Assembly (NCBI RefSeq): GCF_000968535.2
Contig: NC_016112.1
Span: forward strand, 3,224,001 to 3,288,000
DNA length: 64,000 nucleotides
Reading direction: 5' to 3'
DNA from: Methylotuvimicrobium alcaliphilum 20Z
Lineage (GTDB): Bacteria > Pseudomonadota > Gammaproteobacteria > Methylococcales > Methylomonadaceae
Below, piece by piece: positions 12,498-22,133 of this stretch; the stretch's first letter is position 1, and each line of letters begins with the position of its first letter. The notes beneath the pieces were generated by a model. That model made no database searches. It was given only the letters and a program-made list of their open reading frames with translations, and was not told the origin of the DNA. Both the position numbers and the translations under genes were made by a program.

Positions 12498-14636
12498 ATG
12501 TTGAAACCATTTTTGCATCGGCTACTGACTTTTATCTTCAAGGTCGAACTTAAAGGCCTCGATAACTATCATAAAGCCGGCCCCCGCGTAATGATCATTT
12601 CCAATCACACCTCGTTTCTCGACCCATTATTGCTCGGTGTTTTTTTACCGGACGATATTACCTTCGCGATCAATACGCAAATATCCGAGCGCTGGTGGCT
12701 AAAACCGTTCTTGAAGTTGTCGAGAGTCTTTCCGATGGACCCGACCCATCCGATGTCGCTAAAAGAGCTAATCAATCATTTAAAGAGTCCAACTAAAACT
12801 GTGATTTTCCCCGAAGGCCGCATCACCGTTACCGGCTCGGTCATGAAGATATACGACGGCCCGGGCATGGTCGCCGACAAATCGCAGGCCACTGTTTTAC
12901 CGGTGCGCATCAAGGGTGCCGAATACACGCATTTTTCTAAGTTGCGTAATATCGTAAGACTGCGCCTTTTCCCGAAAATTACGATACAAATTCTTCCGCC
13001 TACCACAATAAAAGCGCCTGACGACTTGCGAGGCCGCCGTCGCCGTCAATATTGCGGCCGGATTCTCGCCGACATCATGACCGACATGATGTTCGCGACA
13101 AGCCATTATCAGCAAAGTATTTTTGCCGCCTTGCTCGAAGCGCGCAGTATTCACGGCGGCAAACACACGGTTGCCGAGGATCTCGAACGCAAGCCGTTAT
13201 CCTACGACCGATTGATCACGGCGACGTTGTGTCTGGGTCGCGTCTTGAAAAAAATCACCGTAACCGGAGAAAATGTCGGAGTCATGCTGCCGAATTCGAC
13301 TAAAACGTTATGTACGATTTTAAGTCTTCAGCTTTACGGCCGCACGCCTGCTATGCTGAATTTCTCGACCGGTTCGGCCGGCATGCTTTCGGCCTGCTCC
13401 ACAGCAAAAATTAAAACCGTGCTGACTTCGCGCCGCTTTATCGAGCTGGCAAAATTACAAGATGACGCCGATCGATTAAGCCAACAGGTCGATCTACTTT
13501 ATCTCGAAGACTTAGCTCAGCAAATCACTCCGCTAAGTAAACTAGCGGGCTTGATCAAATGCAAAACTGCCAATATTTGGTATAGACACACTGAGTTCAG
13601 TTACGACAATCCTGCGGTAATTTTATTTACCTCCGGTTCGGAAGGCACACCGAAAGGTGTCGTGTTGTCGCATGCCAACATTCTAGCCAACCACAAGCAA
13701 TTGGAGGCGAGGATCAATTTTAACGCGCAAGATGTCGTACTTAATTTTCTGCCGATGTTCCATTCGTTCGGCTTTACCGTCGGCACGATGCTGCCGATAT
13801 TGAACGGCATGACTACGTTCTTTTATCCGTCGCCTTTGCATTATGCAATCGTTCCTGAGATGGCTTACGAACTCAATGCGACGATCATGTTCGGCACCAA
13901 TACGTTTTTAGCCGCTTATGCGAAAAAAGCCCATGCCTACGATTTTTACAATATGCGCTATGTCGTGGCCGGCGCCGAAAAATTGCAGGATGGCACACGG
14001 CAAATTTGGTCGGAAAAGTTCGGCATTCGTATTCTCGAAGGTTACGGCGCCACCGAAACCGCTCCGGTCACTTCGGTCAATACGCCGATGGAATTTAAGG
14101 CCGGCACGGTAGGACGTTTCATGCCGAAAATGGAATACAAGCTAGAGCCGATACCGGGTATCGAGCAAGGTGGGCAATTGCATGTTAAAGGCCCTAATAT
14201 CATGCAAGGTTATTTGCTGGCGAAAAACCCGGGACAACTGATGCCGCCTAAGTCGGTTTACGGCGAAGGCTGGTACGATACCGGCGATATCGTCGATGTC
14301 GACGATGAGGGTTTCATTACGATCAAAGGCCGCAGTAAACGCTTCGCCAAAATAGCCGGAGAAATGGTTTCGTTGACTGTCGTCGAACAGTTAGCCACCA
14401 AGGCTTGGCCGGATGCGCTTCATGCTGCAGTCACTCTACCCGACGAGAAAAAAGGCGAGCAGATTATTTTGCTGACCACGCAAAAATCGGCATCGGCACG
14501 CGATTTGGAAGCGGTCGCCGAAGGCGTCTCTAAAATTGTTCTACCGAAAAAGATAATGATTGTCGATAAGGTGCCGGTTTTGGCGAGCGGTAAGATCGAT
14601 TATCCTGCGGCTACGGAGTTGGCTAAGAGCGGTTAG
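12498..14636 (+). CDS. aas: Bifunctional acyltransferase / acyl-ACP synthetase (Aas-like)
   Basis: The start is ATG 12498, chosen because GAGGAAG lies seven bases before it; an upstream TTG at 12483 is less likely. Residues 1-200 are a PlsC-type acyltransferase with the NHTSFLDP motif (HX4D) and FPEGRI. From about 210 to the end is an AMP-binding acyl-CoA/ACP synthetase with FTSGSEGTPKG, EGYGATE and WYDTGDIVDVDDEG. This two-domain order matches Aas, which re-acylates 2-acyl-lysophosphatidylethanolamine with fatty acid activated on its acyl carrier site. Length (712) agrees with the E. coli enzyme (about 719). The major-facilitator domain of some fused forms is absent. The stop codon is the first TAG of a long GGTTAGC array. 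Confidence 0.85.
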   Translation: MLKPFLHRLLTFIFKVELKGLDNYHKAGPRVMIISNHTSFLDPLLLGVFLPDDITFAINTQISERWWLKPFLKLSRVFPMDPTHPMSLKELINHLKSPTKTVIFPEGRITVTGSVMKIYDGPGMVADKSQATVLPVRIKGAEYTHFSKLRNIVRLRLFPKITIQILPPTTIKAPDDLRGRRRRQYCGRILADIMTDMMFATSHYQQSIFAALLEARSIHGGKHTVAEDLERKPLSYDRLITATLCLGRVLKKITVTGENVGVMLPNSTKTLCTILSLQLYGRTPAMLNFSTGSAGMLSACSTAKIKTVLTSRRFIELAKLQDDADRLSQQVDLLYLEDLAQQITPLSKLAGLIKCKTANIWYRHTEFSYDNPAVILFTSGSEGTPKGVVLSHANILANHKQLEARINFNAQDVVLNFLPMFHSFGFTVGTMLPILNGMTTFFYPSPLHYAIVPEMAYELNATIMFGTNTFLAAYAKKAHAYDFYNMRYVVAGAEKLQDGTRQIWSEKFGIRILEGYGATETAPVTSVNTPMEFKAGTVGRFMPKMEYKLEPIPGIEQGGQLHVKGPNIMQGYLLAKNPGQLMPPKSVYGEGWYDTGDIVDVDDEGFITIKGRSKRFAKIAGEMVSLTVVEQLATKAWPDALHAAVTLPDEKKGEQIILLTTQKSASARDLEAVAEGVSKIVLPKKIMIVDKVPVLASGKIDYPAATELAKSG

Positions 14637-14793
14637 CGGTTAGCGGTTAGCGGTTAGCGGTTAGCGGTTAGCGGTTAGCGGTTAGCGGTTAGCGGTTAGC
14701 GGTTAGCGGTTAGCGGTTAGCGGTTAGCGGTTAGCGGTTAGCGGTTAGCGGTTAGCGGTTAGCGGTTAGCGGTTAGCGGTTAGCGGTTAGCGG
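14631..14793 (+). repeat. Heptanucleotide tandem array, 23 copies of GGTTAGC
   Basis: There are 23 perfect copies of GGTTAGC (161 bp) followed by GG. The array starts inside the last codons of the aas-like gene, whose stop TAG lies in the first unit, so changes in copy number would not alter the protein. There are no interruptions, which suggests recent expansion and likely length polymorphism. Confidence 0.97.
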
Positions 14794-15342: not shown

Positions 15343-15686
15343 CCCCAGCTTGGGTAACCTGTTCAGGAAGCTCTAGCTTCCCGACAATCAAGGAAGATTG
15401 AACAAGCAAGTCAGGTTTGATTGAGAATGTGCCGAGGTTGCGTCGGTCTCAGGAAGCTGGAGCTTCCGGGGTGTCTTTCCCAAGCTGGAGCTAGGGAAAG
15501 AGCGTGATGTGGGTTGGCCGTTTTTAGCTTTATGCGCACGGGTTGTAAACCCCGCCCTCTCAAAGAGATGAATACTTACTTCTAAGATGGCATTCGTCAC
15601 GAACCTCTAGCGTCATGTGAAAAGGCTTTGAGCCTTATAATAAGGAACAAGGCATGTTCGGCGACTTATTTAAACTACGTTATTTA

Positions 15687-15720
15687 ACTCATTGGTGAGG
15701 CATATGCCCTACCAATGAGT
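15687..15720. other. 34-bp nearly perfect palindrome
   Basis: ACTCATTGGT (15687-15696) and ACCAATGAGT (15711-15720) are exact inverses, and the centre contains a second palindrome, GGCATATGCC. There is no T-run next to it, so it looks more like a protein-binding site or a repeat remnant than a terminator. The surrounding 15720-16045 is A/T-rich and holds no gene I can support. Confidence 0.6.
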
Positions 15721-16045
15721 CATATCCCCCACTTTAATTTATCTAAGAAATCGGCTTCGAATAACAGGAACGCAAAACGGCGAATATTGATTTCCTCTAA
15801 CAACTTAATTTAAGGAGATTTTTTAAATTATTACGCCTGGAAATGTTCCGCTATTAGATAATGGCATTTTTATTGCTTGCTTCATATTGTCTTAGCGCAT
15901 TGGCACAGACTGTAATGAGTACAGTACGGTCGAGTTAACTTATTAAATAGCCGAGGTAAAGCAAACAAATTGAGGTTAATTGCCCAGCCTCCTATACCAA
16001 AGAGCCGGTTGATCGCTGAACCCGCTCTTTAATTTACAAAATAGG

Positions 16046-16274
16046 ACCTGATTAGCAAGTATCTTCAGCTAAAGCCCAAAAACCAGCATATCCCTAGCAG
16101 GACGGGGTTTGCAACCCCGTCCTAAACGCTTTGACTTTGGCCGAAGTTAGCCGAAATGTTTAGGGCAAACCGAAACGTTGGGGACGGGTTAAATAACCCG
16201 TCCCGCAGAAGTGGCTACGACTGGTCACTGCTCGGACAATTGGCTTCAGCAAGCTGAAGCATCTTGCTAATCAA
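16046..16274. mobile_element. Family D element, full copy 1
   Basis: It starts ACCTGATTAGCAAG and ends CTTGCTAATCAA, a near-perfect terminal inverted repeat. Inside are two strong palindromes, GGACGGGGTT...AACCCCGTCC and GGGACGGGTT...AACCCGTCCC, and long blocks identical to the copy at 46689 in the opposite orientation. It ends 129 bp before the corA start, so the corA promoter must lie in that short remainder or at the element edge. Confidence 0.8.
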
Positions 16275-16403
16275 GAAATAGGAAGACAGATAAAATTGCA
16301 AACATTTAAATTCTATCAATCGGTTGCGCTGACCATTTTTGTTAATCGAAAATATGCCAATGCAAAAAAAACGCATGGCGATTATTAAAGCAATGGAGAA
16401 ATA

Positions 16404-17096
16404 ATGAAAAAAACAAATAAAGTAAAAGCCTTAACCTTTGCCGTGGCCACGATGGGAGCTCTAACCAGCTTACCTTCCCATGCCGCAACAACGCTTAATG
16501 GTGGTTTTAATTTTGAATTTACGCCAACTAATTCCTCTCACGTCATGAATATTAGGGCAGACTCTTGGTATAACTTGACCATGGGTTATCTAGGTTGGAC
16601 TCATCATTCAAACTGGGGCTACATGAGACTAAGGAGAGGTCAACCTGTCACGATTACAGTCGATGCCACAGATATTGATGGCTTTCACCCTGGCGTGACG
16701 GTTTGGTATAGACGGCAAGGTAGAAGATTTGCTCCTATTGAATATGTCAATGCGCATTCTTATAGCCAGTCTCAGGATGTAATGGTTCAGAATGCCACTC
16801 TTGACGACGACCCGGTTAACCCGGTTAATCTTGGCCGAATTCATATGGAGTTTATTACCAATGCGTTCGATCGCGACGGCATGGGCGATATATTGGGTGA
16901 AACATACGACCAGTCGGCCATAAACAAGGTTTTAGATGGCGTACCCGGCAAGGTCAGCTTGACTTTCACACCGCCTAAAAACGGTTTTTATCAGTTCGTA
17001 GTCGGCGGTATCAATCCCGATGAAGATATCGACACATCCAAAGCCGTATCACAGCGCTATCCCGTAAGCGTTGAAGTCAGCTTTCCCGGTCGATAA
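16404..17096 (+). CDS. corA: CorA-like copper-repressible secreted copper-binding protein
   Basis: This 230-residue protein has a clear signal peptide (MKKTNKVKALTFAVA...SHA-AT). The mature sequence is beta-rich and ends VSVEVSFPGR. I assign it to the CorA/MopE group of methanotrophs from its size, secretion, the W65-T-H67-H68 motif and the CorB-like gene downstream. MopE and CorA bind Cu(I) using two His and a tryptophan oxidised to kynurenine in a W-x-H setting. Here W65/H67 plus H95 or H118 are candidates for the site. In Methylomicrobium album BG8 the gene is repressed by copper. It is preceded by a good ribosome site (GGAGAAATA). The assignment is not proven by a search. Confidence 0.7.
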   Translation: MKKTNKVKALTFAVATMGALTSLPSHAATTLNGGFNFEFTPTNSSHVMNIRADSWYNLTMGYLGWTHHSNWGYMRLRRGQPVTITVDATDIDGFHPGVTVWYRRQGRRFAPIEYVNAHSYSQSQDVMVQNATLDDDPVNPVNLGRIHMEFITNAFDRDGMGDILGETYDQSAINKVLDGVPGKVSLTFTPPKNGFYQFVVGGINPDEDIDTSKAVSQRYPVSVEVSFPGR

Positions 17097-17156
17097 TATA
17101 CATCCATCTTAACTGCCAGCTTGCACCGAATCTATTGCTTCTTTAGTTTCGTCTCT

Positions 17157-17443
17157 TAGGAACGAGCATGAAATAACTTCGACAAATACTGAAAGGGAGT
17201 TCGGTGGCTCGATTGACAGGCGTCGGCGGCAGGGCAGATTTTTGCTCCTCGGCAACTGCTCCTGCGTTGCCCTAATACACGCCATCCCTGGCGTAATGCA
17301 AAATCTGCATTCATGCCATCCATGGCAATCAGATTCCGCCGTCGAGGCTACATGGATGTATTCACGGCGACCTGCCAAGCGAGTCGCCGAACCACCACAA
17401 TGCCTAAAACTTGTAGAAGTAAATTTGTGCATATTCCTTAGCT
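17157..17443. mobile_element. Family B element with nested insertion, between corA and corB
   Basis: The outer ends are TTAGGAACGAGCATGAAATAA (left) and an inverse-like TTGTGCATATTCCTTA (right). The inner inverted repeats are GTTCGGTGGCTCGATTGACA and the matching CTGCCAAGCGAGTCGCCGAAC. The middle carries a nested palindromic unit (GGCGTAATGCAAAATCTGC, GCCATCCATGGC) shared with the copies at 30408, 38779 and 54956. It occupies most of the 411-bp gap between corA and corB. Confidence 0.75.
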
Positions 17444-17462
17444 GCGAGGTTCACATCGTTAA

Positions 17463-17499
17463 GGGGAGGCAGATATCTGCCTCCCCCCCGCTTTTTTTT
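17463..17499 (+). terminator. Terminator-like hairpin just before corB
   Basis: GGGGAGGCAGATATCTGCCTCCCC (17463-17486) is a perfect 24-bp palindrome. It is followed by CCCCG-C and eight T at 17492-17499, nine bases before the corB ATG. Sequence alone fits an intrinsic terminator or attenuator on the corB strand. Confidence 0.6.
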
Positions 17500-17507
17500 G
17501 GAAAATC

Positions 17508-19643
17508 ATGTTTATTAGCGTTAAAAAAACCTTTGTCCGCAAATTCGTATTGTCGCTATGCCTGTTGACCGTTCTGTTGGGACATCCGAAATGGGCACTG
17601 GCGCATGGATTCGCCGAAGACCATTCTTTTGGTTTAGTGACATTGCCCGAAACCCCGGGCTTGATAGGCAGACGATCCTCAATTATCGTTGACCAAGAGG
17701 CAGCTATTCAGCTGGGCAAAGCCTTGTTCTGGGATGTCAATGTCGGTAGCGACGGCATTGCTTGTGCCAGTTGCCATTTTCATGCGGGCGCCGACCGGCG
17801 CACGCGTAATCAGATGAATAGCGGTCAGCGTCATACCGCGAATACTGAAAGCGCGAAACGTTTCGAGATTGGCGGACCGGATTATGAGCTTAAAGCCAGC
17901 GACTTTCCGTTTTTTCGTTTAAGCGATCCCGCCGACAAAAACTCGGAGATACTTTTTGCGACGGACGATGTGGCCGGTTCCTCCGGCGCTTTTACACGTT
18001 CATTTGAAAGTGTTCAAGAAACGGTTGACGGCATCGACCAATGCACTCCTCAAAACAGCGATATTTTCCACGCAAACGGTTTAAGCACTCGTCAAGTGAC
18101 CAATCGCAATACGCCGACGGTCATCAATGCGGCCTTCAATTTTCGAAACTTCTGGGACGGGCGCGCCAACAATATTTTTAACGGCGTCTCGGGCTTTGGA
18201 CATCGAGACCCCAACGCCAAGGTTTGGATAGCCAGAAACGACAAAAGAGCCCGACAAGTCAAGTTGTACCTAGAGCATGCTTCTCTCGCATCCCAGGCCG
18301 TCGAGCCGCCATTGGATATGATAGAAATGTCCTGCCAAGGACGGACCTTTTCCGAAATAGGCAAAAAATTAATTCGACGCCGTCCGCTCGAAACACAGCT
18401 TGTTCATGCCGAAGACAGTGTATTGGGTGTGGTGCGTCATGAATCCGGAAAGGGCTTGAATACCACTTATGGCGAATTGATCGAAAAAGCCTTCCATAGA
18501 AAATTCTGGCGGGCCAATGCGGATTTCGGCGTTTCGAATTCGGGCGAGCCTTATTCTCAGATCGAGGCCAATTTCGCCTTCTTTTTCGGCCTGGCGATTC
18601 AACTTTACGAAAATACGCTAATCTCCGATCAAGCACCTTTCGATCAGCCATTGGACGATGAAGGCTATCCTTACGGGTTTACCGCTCAACAAAAGCAGGG
18701 GCAAGATGTCTTTTTCGATGCGCATTGCCATAACTGCCATTCCGGGCCGACATTCTCGGCGGCGATCAACCCTCAAGCCTATTATCGTTCAGGCAGAAAA
18801 CCGCGCTATCTCCGCGTAGTCGACAGGACTGTTTTAGGTGAGCAGACCAGTGGCGTGGGCATCGACAAAACATTAGTCGACATTGGGTTTTTCAACACCA
18901 GTGTGACACCGAATGACTACGATGTGGGGCTAGGCGGCAAGGATCCGTTCGGTAATCCGCTGTCCTTTTCGGAACAATATTTGGCGGTCTTGGCAAACGC
19001 CTCCAAGTCAATGGTCGACCCCATCAGGGTTGTTGCCTGTGATTTTGTTGAACCATTCGTCAGTGAATTGGAATTCGGCGACAGAGAAACGGTTCGCGAT
19101 CGCCGTTTTGGACGCGGAGCGGTATGTCGCGGTAAAGCGCTAAGACAACTATCAAGAGTGCCGTCCCCTGCTGTCGTTGAGGCGGAAATGCGTAAACCCG
19201 GCAACGGCCGTGTCTCAACCTTGACTAAAGGCGCCTTCAAGGTGCCCACTCTAAGAAACGTCGAATTGACCGGGCCATACATGCATAATGGCGGCATGAA
19301 GTCGCTTGAGGAAGTCGTGGAGTTTTATAATCGTGGCGGAAATATACAAAATCGGCGTCATGCGGCCACCTTAGTATTCGACCAAGGTTTTACCGAAGAA
19401 GACAAAGCAAGCTTGGTCGCTTTTATGAAAACCTTGACCGATGAGCGGGTGCGCTGGGAAAAAGCGCCTTTCGATCACCCCGAACTTTGGGTCCCGCACG
19501 GACATGAGGAAGGAGTCGGCAGCCAGATCGATCCGGGTAGTTTGGCAGAAGACAAGTTTATTTATGTTCCGCCCGTAGGTCGGAATGGTCGCACGAGCGA
19601 TCAGGGCCCTTTAAAGCCTTTTGATAGTTTTTTACAACCTTGA
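17508..19643 (+). CDS. corB: CorB/SACCP-like di-haem cytochrome c peroxidase family protein
   Basis: This is a 711-residue secreted protein with a signal peptide (KKTFVRKFVLSLCLL...ALA-HG). It has two c-type haem motifs: CASCH near residue 85, in the usual FWDVNVGSDGIACASCH context of the MauG/cytochrome c peroxidase family, and CHNCH near residue 404. A conserved C-terminal TPTLRN-like motif (VPTLRNVELTGPYMHNGG) is also present. The length is about twice that of classical CCPs and matches the surface-associated peroxidases found beside MopE/CorA in methanotrophs. It may oxidise the CorA tryptophan to kynurenine, as MauG oxidises tryptophans, or serve in extracellular redox chemistry; this is inferred. 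The ribosome site is weak (GGA five bases before ATG) and sits behind a terminator-like hairpin. Confidence 0.82.
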   Translation: MFISVKKTFVRKFVLSLCLLTVLLGHPKWALAHGFAEDHSFGLVTLPETPGLIGRRSSIIVDQEAAIQLGKALFWDVNVGSDGIACASCHFHAGADRRTRNQMNSGQRHTANTESAKRFEIGGPDYELKASDFPFFRLSDPADKNSEILFATDDVAGSSGAFTRSFESVQETVDGIDQCTPQNSDIFHANGLSTRQVTNRNTPTVINAAFNFRNFWDGRANNIFNGVSGFGHRDPNAKVWIARNDKRARQVKLYLEHASLASQAVEPPLDMIEMSCQGRTFSEIGKKLIRRRPLETQLVHAEDSVLGVVRHESGKGLNTTYGELIEKAFHRKFWRANADFGVSNSGEPYSQIEANFAFFFGLAIQLYENTLISDQAPFDQPLDDEGYPYGFTAQQKQGQDVFFDAHCHNCHSGPTFSAAINPQAYYRSGRKPRYLRVVDRTVLGEQTSGVGIDKTLVDIGFFNTSVTPNDYDVGLGGKDPFGNPLSFSEQYLAVLANASKSMVDPIRVVACDFVEPFVSELEFGDRETVRDRRFGRGAVCRGKALRQLSRVPSPAVVEAEMRKPGNGRVSTLTKGAFKVPTLRNVELTGPYMHNGGMKSLEEVVEFYNRGGNIQNRRHAATLVFDQGFTEEDKASLVAFMKTLTDERVRWEKAPFDHPELWVPHGHEEGVGSQIDPGSLAEDKFIYVPPVGRNGRTSDQGPLKPFDSFLQP

Positions 19644-19680
19644 AGCGACTCGCTCCGGATTCGTAGTATTCCGTTAAAAA

Positions 19681-19840
19681 TATACCTTTCGCACTTCAAA
19701 TTTCGGTAGTGCCCGAGAAGGCACCGGGGTGTCCGACAAAGGCTTTGTCAACATGGAGCAGGCATAGAGCCTACATGGACATATTAACGGCGTCCTTTGA
19801 CGGGCACCCCGGTGCCGAATTTTGATCTACGGTGGGTATA
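19681..19840 (-). repeat. Family A repeat, full 160-bp copy, reverse orientation
   Basis: It runs TATACCTTTCGCACTTC to GGTGGGTATA with the core on the minus strand (GGACGCCGTTAATATGTCC). It occupies half of the 315-bp gap between corB and ppk1. The remaining bases before ppk1 (19841-19958) must hold its promoter. Confidence 0.85.
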
Positions 19841-19958
19841 AACAAACGCACCAAGATTATTTGCGAAAGCTTAAAGACTCCAGAAGCCTACTCTCTTGAT
19901 CGGTTATAATTTGTAATCCACTTTTCGATGACATATTGACCAAGGGCGCCTGGAAGCA

Positions 19959-22133
19959 ATGAATACACAAAGCAGCACTATCGAACCGAATGCCCCTTCT
20001 ATTCGTGTAGACTTCGACGCAACTTCTCCCGAATGGTACCTGAACCGCGAATTGACTTGGCTCGAGTTCAATAAACGCGTCTTGCACGAAGCCGAGGACG
20101 AGCGAACGCCGCTACTGGAAAGAGTCAAATTTATCGCGATCGTCAGCTCCAATCTGGACGAATTTTTCATGAAGCGCATCGGCGGACTCAAACAACAACT
20201 CGGCGCCGGCATCACCGAATTAAGCGTGGACGGTCGCAGCCCCCAACAACAAATCACCGAATGCTACGCGGTCGTACGCGAAATCGAAGCGAAAAAACAG
20301 CAACTGTTCGTCGAATTAATGCAGCATCTCGAGTCGCAAGACATCCGTATCCTTCCTTTCACCGAATTAACGCGCACTCAACAAAAACAAATGCGCGATT
20401 ACTATATCCAGAATATTTTCCCGCTAGTGACGCCTCAGGCGATCGATCCGGCGCATCCGTTTCCGTTCATTTCGAACCTGGCTTTGAACCTGCTAGCCGG
20501 GGTCTATTGCACAGACCCCGAACTCGTCACGCTCGTCAGGATCAAAGTCCCGGTCGGCCCCAGACTGCCGCGTTTCATTCAGGTCGGCGACGAGTTTGTT
20601 TATGTTGCGCTGGGCGATTTAATCGCGAACAATTTAGATTTACTGTTTCCGGGCATGAATATTGCTTTTGCGGATTTATTCCGCGTGACGCGCAACGCCA
20701 TCACCGAAAAGGACGAGGACCAGGCCGACGACTTACTACAAATGATCGAATCGGAATTGCGCGAACGCAAATTCGCCTCGGTCGTTAGACTCGAAGTCGC
20801 CTCAACGATGGGCAAGTTGCAACGCGGCATGCTGGCCGCCGAACTTAATCTGAACGAGCATGATGTATTCGTTGTCGACCAGCGCTTGGCGATGTCCGAT
20901 TTATTTCAAATCGCCGCGATCGACCGGCCGGACTTGCTCGACGCCCCGCATCACCCCTGCGATCACCCTAAATTAGCCGGCGCGCCGAATATTTTCCATG
21001 CCATTCGCGAACAAGAGACGATACTGCTGCAACACCCCTATGAGTCTTTCGTGACGACGGTCGAACGCTTCGTCAAGGAAGCTAGCCGCGACCCGAATGT
21101 TCGGGCCATTAAAATGACGCTATACCGCACTTCGGCCGGCACCAAAATCGTCCAATATTTGATTGACGCCGCATTAAACGGCAAACAGGTTACCGTATCG
21201 GTGGAGTTGAAAGCGCGTTTCGATGAATCGGCCAATATCCAATGGGCACAACGCATGGAGCGCTCAGGGATTCATGTCACTTATGGCGTGGTCGGACTCA
21301 AAACGCACAGTAAAGTGGTTTATGTCGTTCGCCAGGACTATAACGGTCTACGCCGATACGCGCATATCGGCACAGGAAATTATCACGCCGGAACCGCCAG
21401 GCTCTATACCGACCTCGGCATTTTGACCTGCGACCAAGACATCGGCAAAGACCTTACCGAATTATTCAATTATATGACGACGGGCCTGGTTCCGAAGCGC
21501 CAATACAATTGTCTACTCACCTCGCCGAAATACCTAAAACCCGCTTTAATCGAAAAAATCGAACGCGAAATCGCCAAACATTCGCCAAAAACACCCGGTT
21601 TGATTCAATTCAAGATGAATGCCTTAGAAGATGTCGATATCACGGCCGCGCTTTATCGGGCCGCTCAAGCCGGCGTCAAAATCGATTTGATCGTCCGCGA
21701 TACCTGCCGACTGCGACCCGGCATTCCGGGAATCTCCGATTCGGTACGCGTCATCAGCATTGTCGGCCGTTTTCTTGAGCATTCGCGGATTTTTTATTTC
21801 CAAAACGGCGGCGACGAAGAATATTTCATCGGCTCGGCCGACTGCATGAAACGCAACCTGGAAAGCCGCGTAGAAGTCGTCACACCGATCAGAAAACCCG
21901 AATTACAAGCCGAGCTACGAGAAGTATTGAACGTACAATTAAATAATCAAAGAAGCGTTTGGGAGATGCAGTCCGACGGCAGCTATGTTCAGCGCCAACC
22001 GAAAAATGAACAGGACGCCGTTGGAGCCCAAGAAACGCTGATTAACTTAGCCCAGACACGCCTTAAACAAGCCGGCTCTGAAAAAAAACTCAAGAAATCG
22101 AAAAAAAGCCGATCCGGATCGCGCCCTGGATAA
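19959..22133 (+). CDS. ppk1: Polyphosphate kinase 1
   Basis: The 724 residues have the four-domain PPK1 layout. The N-terminal domain begins YLNRELTWLEFNKRVLHEA. A middle head domain follows. The two phospholipase-D-like catalytic domains contain IKMTLYRTS and YAHIGTGNYH, with the autophosphorylated His at about residue 469, and a second conserved region IGSADCMKRNLESRVE. The enzyme reversibly polymerises the gamma phosphate of ATP into polyphosphate, at the inner membrane. Length is typical (about 690-740). There is a basic tail (KKLKKSKKSRSGS) that is not part of the catalytic core. No ppx exopolyphosphatase gene is adjacent. A family E hairpin element follows 26 bp after the stop and probably terminates transcription. 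Confidence 0.96.
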   Translation: MNTQSSTIEPNAPSIRVDFDATSPEWYLNRELTWLEFNKRVLHEAEDERTPLLERVKFIAIVSSNLDEFFMKRIGGLKQQLGAGITELSVDGRSPQQQITECYAVVREIEAKKQQLFVELMQHLESQDIRILPFTELTRTQQKQMRDYYIQNIFPLVTPQAIDPAHPFPFISNLALNLLAGVYCTDPELVTLVRIKVPVGPRLPRFIQVGDEFVYVALGDLIANNLDLLFPGMNIAFADLFRVTRNAITEKDEDQADDLLQMIESELRERKFASVVRLEVASTMGKLQRGMLAAELNLNEHDVFVVDQRLAMSDLFQIAAIDRPDLLDAPHHPCDHPKLAGAPNIFHAIREQETILLQHPYESFVTTVERFVKEASRDPNVRAIKMTLYRTSAGTKIVQYLIDAALNGKQVTVSVELKARFDESANIQWAQRMERSGIHVTYGVVGLKTHSKVVYVVRQDYNGLRRYAHIGTGNYHAGTARLYTDLGILTCDQDIGKDLTELFNYMTTGLVPKRQYNCLLTSPKYLKPALIEKIEREIAKHSPKTPGLIQFKMNALEDVDITAALYRAAQAGVKIDLIVRDTCRLRPGIPGISDSVRVISIVGRFLEHSRIFYFQNGGDEEYFIGSADCMKRNLESRVEVVTPIRKPELQAELREVLNVQLNNQRSVWEMQSDGSYVQRQPKNEQDAVGAQETLINLAQTRLKQAGSEKKLKKSKKSRSGSRPG

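Follow-up and report, generated by a model that had tools for sequence, protein, structure and literature searches.

The corA-corB pair is a known copper-scavenging gene pair of methanotrophs, and its copper repression has already been published. In Methylomicrobium album, the two genes are called co-transcribed, and CorB has been proposed to oxidise the tryptophan of the CorA binding site to kynurenine (PMC3912023; this and the other papers cited by PMC number are represented here by excerpts). In Methylotuvimicrobium alcaliphilum 20Z, where the pair corresponds to MEALZ_2831 and MEALZ_2832 (PMC6277846, PMC11784148), lanthanum lowers the expression of both genes (PMC6277846), and omics data suggest copper regulation of both (PMC11784148). 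Here we analysed a 64,000-nt stretch of the genome of this strain (NC_016112.1, positions 3,224,001 to 3,288,000; hereafter the window, whose numbering is used below), which carries corA and corB on its + strand at 16404-19643. In genome coordinates, the locus is G000:C2:3240404-3243643, G000 being the strain's own genome (a 4,668,296-bp chromosome and one smaller contig). We consider it probable that this locus is an intact copper-starvation operon, in which tandem dyads and a sigma54-type promoter drive corA and read-through of a leaky terminator gives corB.

Among the described systems, corA-corB of M. album BG8 (CorA structure 4bz4) shares with the window the gene order, the CorA family, the Trp/His/His ligands, a di-haem partner and a hairpin between the genes. 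However, the CorA proteins are 52% identical, and the gap between the genes measures 77 bp in the M. album genome used here (G031, whose CorA is 99% identical to the 4bz4 stretch compared), versus 411 bp, with an inserted repeat, in the window. The MopE-SACCP system of Methylococcus capsulatus consists of the same two protein families, but SACCP comes first, and the gap measures about 36-42 bp in four of the five loci and about 195 bp in the remaining one; unscored inspection of these gaps revealed no terminator. The promoters of the soluble methane monooxygenase (sMMO; mmoX), whose activator is MmoR, resemble that of corA in their sigma54 box and low-copper expression. The copper switch of methanotrophs is an old question, and we know of no identified regulator for corA or mopE. 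Finally, the MCA0424 operon of copper-responding cluster 1 is up-regulated at low copper, and sigma54 promoters were predicted in the copper-responding clusters; unlike corA, it encodes multihaem cytochromes, and IHF and Fur boxes are described for its promoter, with no mention of a dyad found in the excerpt (PMC4831470). No sigma54 promoter or activator site for corA was described in the titles and abstracts of the literature searched, some key papers lying outside that search; as far as the search shows, the sigma54 box, the dyads and the conserved intercistronic terminator are undescribed for the corA-corB operon.

Identity of CorA and CorB

The corA gene (16404-17096, + strand) encodes a predicted secreted copper(I)-binding protein of 230 amino acids, which is covered over its whole length by the Cu_bind_CorA profile PF18252 (184 of 184 positions, E 9.8e-102, 338.7 bits versus a cut-off of 27). 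Among solved structures, it matched CorA (4bz4, E 3.2e-70) and MopE (2vov, E 2.5e-4). The window protein and 31 of the 32 species compared have equivalents of the 4bz4 copper ligands Trp(Kyn)62, His64 and His114, the exception (G044) being a sequence that begins inside corA at a contig start. The corB gene (17508-19643, + strand) encodes a MauG/CCP-type di-haem protein of 711 amino acids, whose translation contains two CxxCH motifs (CASCH and CHNCH). It exceeded the cut-off of the CCP_MauG profile PF03150 (74.4 versus 25.6 bits), and solved di-haem peroxidases in the PDB matched it. Its scores were below the NCBIfam equivalog cut-offs for MbnH (108.8 versus 362.85) and MauG (87.5 versus 443.85); judged by these profiles, CorB is a relative, and not a member, of both equivalogs. 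The sequence-only reading of this DNA, which had proposed a CorA-like secreted protein with a MauG/CCP di-haem partner, was thus borne out by PF18252, 4bz4 and PF03150, including the similarity to CorA/MopE.

CorA was 93% identical in a sister species (G002) and CorB 89% identical in M. buryatense (G004). Overall, 50 of the 200 relatives searched had a CorA match, of which 47 exceeded the family cut-off. The order corA then corB was observed in most loci of the window's family and was reversed in loci of genus g32 and its kin, which we took as Methylococcus-like. Within the window's genus, three of the six genomes had a corA match (G000, G002 and G004) and none was found in G001 (79% complete), G003 or G005. 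One genome, G014, contained six matches to the corA family (loci L045, L051, L059 and L061), with three consecutive ones in L051. In another observation, three species of a single genus (loci L070, L081 and L044) had a short response-regulator-like gene and a chemoreceptor-like gene, both assigned by eye, directly upstream of corA.

Sigma54-type box and tandem dyads upstream of corA

A sigma54-type -24/-12 box, TGGCATTTTTATTGCT, was identified on the + strand at 15862-15877, with counterparts in G002 (TGGCATTTTTATTGCA) and G004 (TGGCCTTCTTATTGCA). It shows GG-N10-GC in the TGGCAY/TTGCW context of the sigma54 consensus, and the genome contains one rpoN gene. Strict matches, this box among them, were hardly enriched in this genome (11, versus 7 for a reversed control pattern); several precede nitrate-transport-like, nitrite-reductase-like, molybdate-binding-like and NifU-like genes (by eye), which look like typical sigma54 targets. 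Across species, a box scoring at least 10.5 was present within 350 nt upstream of corA in 20 out of 30 species, close relatives included, versus 16 out of 103 control upstream regions (p 1.8e-7); the controls rest on crude open reading frame (ORF) calls and include some additional corA copies or SACCP genes, which tends to diminish the contrast.

To the left of the box, three 16-bp dyads spaced 20 bp apart occupy 15676-15731, 129-169 nt upstream of it. Their consensus, TGNGNNATWTNNCNCA (TG[TA]GG[CG]ATAT[GC]CC[AT]CA), came from a de novo palindromic search of the 230 nt upstream of the box in 20 species. The resulting matrix reached 187.5 bits, versus 37-55 in eight shuffled sets, and 19 of the 20 training species had a dyad with a score of 10 or more, in many cases as pairs with a spacing of 20, 22 or 30-31 bp. 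A held-out matrix, built from eight genera excluding the window's, reached 66.1 bits (20 shuffled sets: 26-43); its three highest-scoring matches in the window were the three tandem sites at 15676, 15696 and 15716. All three are read on the + strand. Dyad 1 (TACGTTATTTAACTCA, 15676-15691) is the weakest, with scores of 12.7 with the first matrix and 13.5 with the held-out one. Dyad 2 (TGAGGCATATGCCCTA, 15696-15711) is the best match of the window with both (20.9 and 18.1, respectively) and has counterparts in G002 and G004. Dyad 3 (TGAGTCATATCCCCCA, 15716-15731), 20 bp from dyad 2, scored 20.0 and 17.0 and is identical in G002. Dyad-symmetric, tandem and helically phased sites roughly 50-200 nt before the box are typical of the upstream activating sequences (UAS) of bacterial enhancer-binding proteins (bEBPs), and the three sites fit this description.

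With the first matrix, 25 of 31 species had a dyad of at least 13 in the 800 nt before corA, comprising 19 of the 20 training species (all except G119) and 6 of the 11 others; these 6 include G065 and G171, near-duplicates of training species, which had been excluded from training together with the short G187. None of 55 control genes of the own genome had such a dyad, and a degenerate dyad pattern gave 18 matches there (two places being counted on both strands), versus 6 for the reversed pattern.

Dyads were also present at other operons. In SACCP-mopE loci, four out of five had a dyad of at least 13 before the operon and the fifth reached 12.2. The published MCA0424 box (PMC4831470) was used as a search pattern, and its exact match is our ground for taking genus g32 as Methylococcus; in 5 out of 5 g32 genomes, a dyad pair 20-21 bp apart was found upstream of this box, at 62 and 82-83 nt before it (53 and 73 in one genome). 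At sMMO operons, in contrast, the first matrix found a dyad of at least 11 in 0 of 20, although 15 of the 20 have a sigma54 box, and the second matrix in 1 of 20.

Among ten other loci of the own genome with a strict sigma54 match, six had no dyad at 13, two (L139 and L141) had one about 2-3 kb from the box, and two (L138 and L142) had a pair just upstream. L142 (G000:C2:1570000-1573300) contains a MauG-like di-haem gene, assigned by eye, with a sigma54 box and two dyads (15.2 and 13.4); this gene is perhaps the counterpart of the copper-repressed MCA1906. In L229, a dyad lies upstream of a pseudopilin-like gene with a box of 18.8. In L148, dyads are located between a secreted-protein pair and a divergent thioredoxin/DUF3570/ApbE operon, with sigma54-like boxes (9.4 and 8.3) below the 10.5 cut-off. 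The secreted pair may be MEALZ_0810-0811, which are named as induced by copper limitation (PMC11784148). A protein resembling the secreted one of L148 was seen by eye upstream of corA in G192. Finally, L223 (1794-2054; G000:C2:389793-390053) carries a dyad pair (19.2 and 19.8) and a sigma54 box (18.8), with no convincing ORF nearby and no tRNA; a small RNA under copper control or the remains of a gene may lie there.

The intercistronic terminator and the inserted repeats

An intrinsic terminator lies between the two genes on the + strand at 17463-17499. It consists of a 10-bp GC-rich stem with a 4-nt loop (hairpin 17463-17486), followed by a T run that ends 8 nt before the corB ATG. The hairpin folds with a z of -3.0, and none of 200 shuffles folded as well. 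Terminator-like sites are common in this region (4 in the 4.2 kb scanned, versus 5.7 in shuffles), but this hairpin has by far the longest stem of the four.

For comparison, we hand-picked 32 species with corA and corB on the same strand, one locus per genome, leaving out loci that had no corB match, a distance of about 1 kb or more to corB, or corB before corA. Strict terminator-like hairpins were present in 23 of the 32 gaps, including that of M. album, with 5.0 expected from dinucleotide shuffles; in this count, the G055 gap was entered as 62 bp instead of its true 77 bp, and in G004 the hairpin next to corB is not the one counted. Stretches of the same length from the 3' end of corA gave 2 out of 32, and other codirectional gaps 15 out of 39 (p 0.008), so that terminators between codirectional neighbours are not rare in general. 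The last T run ends only 8-9 nt before the corB ATG in G000, G002, G004, G031 and G055. This distance is too short to accommodate a promoter after the hairpin, so that corB would have to be reached by read-through in these five species. In seven species, the pairing was kept despite a changed sequence (all pairs in six, 9 out of 10 in G055; stems chosen by eye). Moreover, a sigma54-type site of at least 9 within 200 nt upstream of corB and a dyad of at least 13 in the gap were each found in 0 of the 32 species. Since the M. album genes are reported as co-transcribed and the hairpin is present there, the terminator of that species is necessarily leaky or under control. The simplest reading of these sequences would be a leaky terminator through which CorB stays scarce relative to CorA, and corB is likely attenuated relative to corA, as an old property of the locus.

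Two repeat elements flank corA. Element B (17156-17440), in the gap, has imperfect inverted ends, TTA on both sides and a stable predicted RNA fold (z -5.4). Like a miniature inverted-repeat transposable element (MITE), it is short and multicopy, with inverted ends and a flanking duplication, and contains no gene. At least 53 further matching stretches, several per copy, were found in the own genome (40 scored of 563 first-look candidates). Among 39 other copies fetched, 26 had the same ends and 13 shared inner parts only; the flanks were TAA or TTA where read by eye. Element D (16047-16275), also MITE-like, has 13-bp inverted ends, with one mismatch here, and the 8-bp AAATAGGA on both flanks; it was recorded at this locus and in G004. 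D lies between the sigma54 box and corA, 128 nt before the ATG, and occupies the same place in M. buryatense, but is absent in G002, although the G002 CorA is the closer one. In G002, the corA-corB gap is 138 bp long, without B and with the hairpin kept, so B is an insertion of about 285 bp and the hairpin lies outside it. Both elements look like passenger insertions. The sequence-only reading had placed a B element and a terminator-like hairpin between the genes and a D element upstream of corA, and all three were confirmed.

Other structures were noted around these elements. A 5' hairpin near the corA start, considered as a candidate, was alike in three Methylotuvimicrobium species and was not seen in M. 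album, and we did not retain it. The cores of B are modular, inner parts recurring within elements with other ends (TAGGATTTGGTCG... and CAGCAATTCCCAATT...; loci L082-L120). Another hairpin repeat (19720-19816), with 23-bp arms that are 91% complementary, lies about 80 bp after corB and shares with B a 30-bp stretch at 83% identity. Further upstream, tandem AGCGGTT heptads (14628-14793) directly follow an acyltransferase/ligase-like gene ending at 14636.

Expression of the pair and a candidate activator

In the mechanism that we infer from these features, an enhancer-binding activator would occupy the dyads at 15676-15731 when copper is scarce and turn on sigma54 RNA polymerase at 15862-15877. 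The transcript would cross a leader of about 500 nt, now containing D, into corA; most polymerases would stop at the terminator before corB, and a minority would read through to make corB. The surface copper binder CorA would thus be in excess over the di-haem CorB, which probably oxidises the binding-site tryptophan of CorA to kynurenine.

Other explanations of corB expression have to be weighed against this one. The sequence-only reading had suggested that the B repeat and the hairpin separate corB from corA, so that corB lost its copper response. B is indeed an insertion with a very stable predicted RNA fold, and the hairpin is a good terminator. However, the hairpin is conserved without B, no sigma54 site or dyad at the above cut-offs precedes corB in any of the 32 species, a strong hairpin is found in the M. 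album pair, which is reported as co-transcribed, and in M. alcaliphilum lanthanum affects the two genes together and copper regulation is described for both (PMC6277846, PMC11784148). On the other hand, the copper-correlation sentence in the excerpt of PMC11784148 names CorA and MEALZ_0810-0811 and omits CorB. Uncoupling by the repeat is nevertheless very improbable: the gene identities and the elements of that reading stood, and its consequence for corB did not. It is less improbable, though still unlikely, that corB is transcribed separately, from a promoter of its own located in the gap, the terminator simply closing the corA unit. Room for such a promoter exists in 16 relatives, where the hairpin ends 43-212 nt before corB, and the terminators in 15 of 39 other codirectional gaps would agree with it; in the five species with 8-9 nt, however, the promoter would have to fire through the hairpin. 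Moreover, the sole + strand sigma70-like match in 15800-20000, a scan that gave fewer matches than shuffles, is at 17661, inside corB, and the M. album pair is reported as co-transcribed (PMC3912023). A third possibility, which we find somewhat more doubtful than a separate unit, is that the hairpin is a regulated attenuator, at which a low-copper anti-terminator changes the CorA:CorB ratio. Its conserved place, with changed sequence and kept pairing in seven species, would fit such a device, but inspection of the 77-bp gaps of G031 and G055, with no systematic search, brought up no alternative pairing that is conserved.

Upstream of corA, the dyads might serve another sigma54 activator, for instance of NifA or NtrC type, the copper link being secondary. 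Some dyads resemble the NifA site TGT-N10-ACA, and the own genome encodes 12 well-scoring activators. On the other side, the dyads are found at corA, at SACCP-mopE and at the copper-repressed MCA0424 promoter, are missing at mmoX (0 of 20), and accompany the box closely at two of the ten other strict sigma54 loci; we regard service to another activator as improbable. Several observations nevertheless weigh against an intact copper-starvation operon driven from this promoter. The sigma54 matrix was built from a consensus, no box of at least 10.5 was found within 350 nt in 10 of the 30 species, the 350-nt scan missed G000 and G004, whose boxes lie farther upstream and were placed by hand, and the G004 box is weak (9.9). 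Strong conservation of the 128 bp before corA in three species may point to a second promoter or a leader RNA function. In loci of the relatives, 17 of 93 control genes had a dyad; 10 of these were additional corA copies or SACCP genes and 3 were divergent neighbours of such genes, which leaves 4 of another kind. So strong a terminator could also end corA transcription entirely. Furthermore, a corB mutant of M. alcaliphilum grew faster on methane (PMC11784148, PMC3912023), which fits poorly with an essential kynurenine-making step.

As for the activator itself, a candidate was found in the own genome at L172, where a dyad (14.4) lies upstream of a gene for a DsbD_2 membrane protein with the motif HCIGMCG, followed 17 nt later by the activator gene at C2:634820-635791. 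The candidate consists of AAA+ and Fis-type helix-turn-helix domains only and resembles in this respect PspF-type bEBPs, which have no sensor domain; however, its partner is a DsbD_2 protein with HC[IL]GMCG instead of PspA. A DsbD_2 neighbour stood beside the activator in 20 of 20 and 17 of 20 loci in two sets. In G177, the activator and DsbD_2 pair (the latter with an interrupted frame) is oriented divergently to a small gene that has corA behind it, and a dyad pair lies in the space separating them; this activator is 60.5% identical to that of G000 (387 bits, the second-best match reaching 253). When one activator was used to query the corA loci, G177 alone proved to have such a regulator gene near corA. 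A dyad was present upstream of the activator operon in 8 of the first 20 loci (five in the window's genus, one of them the own genome) and in 1 of 20 in the second set, where it was weak (10.9); autoregulation is lineage-limited and no proof of the activator assignment. Phyletic co-occurrence of activator and corA was rejected as evidence, as it did not discriminate: 176 of 200 relatives had an activator match at E <= 1e-75, of which 13 were weaker than 1e-100, and G001, G003 and G005 have the activator without a corA match. The assignment is a lead and not a result.

We tentatively propose, as a possibility clearly less secure than the operon structure itself, that gammaproteobacterial methanotrophs share a copper-starvation sigma54 regulon that is marked by the dyad and run by this sensor-less activator encoded behind the DsbD_2 protein. 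Copper would be sensed by the DsbD_2 membrane protein, which would retain the activator or set it free. In the own genome, the regulon would comprise corA-corB, the L142 di-haem gene, the L148 pair with its divergent operon, L229 and the L172 regulator operon. With a defined cis site and a candidate activator, copper control can be put directly to the test in strains for which genetics exist, and this upstream switch may show how methanotrophs respond to copper shortage.

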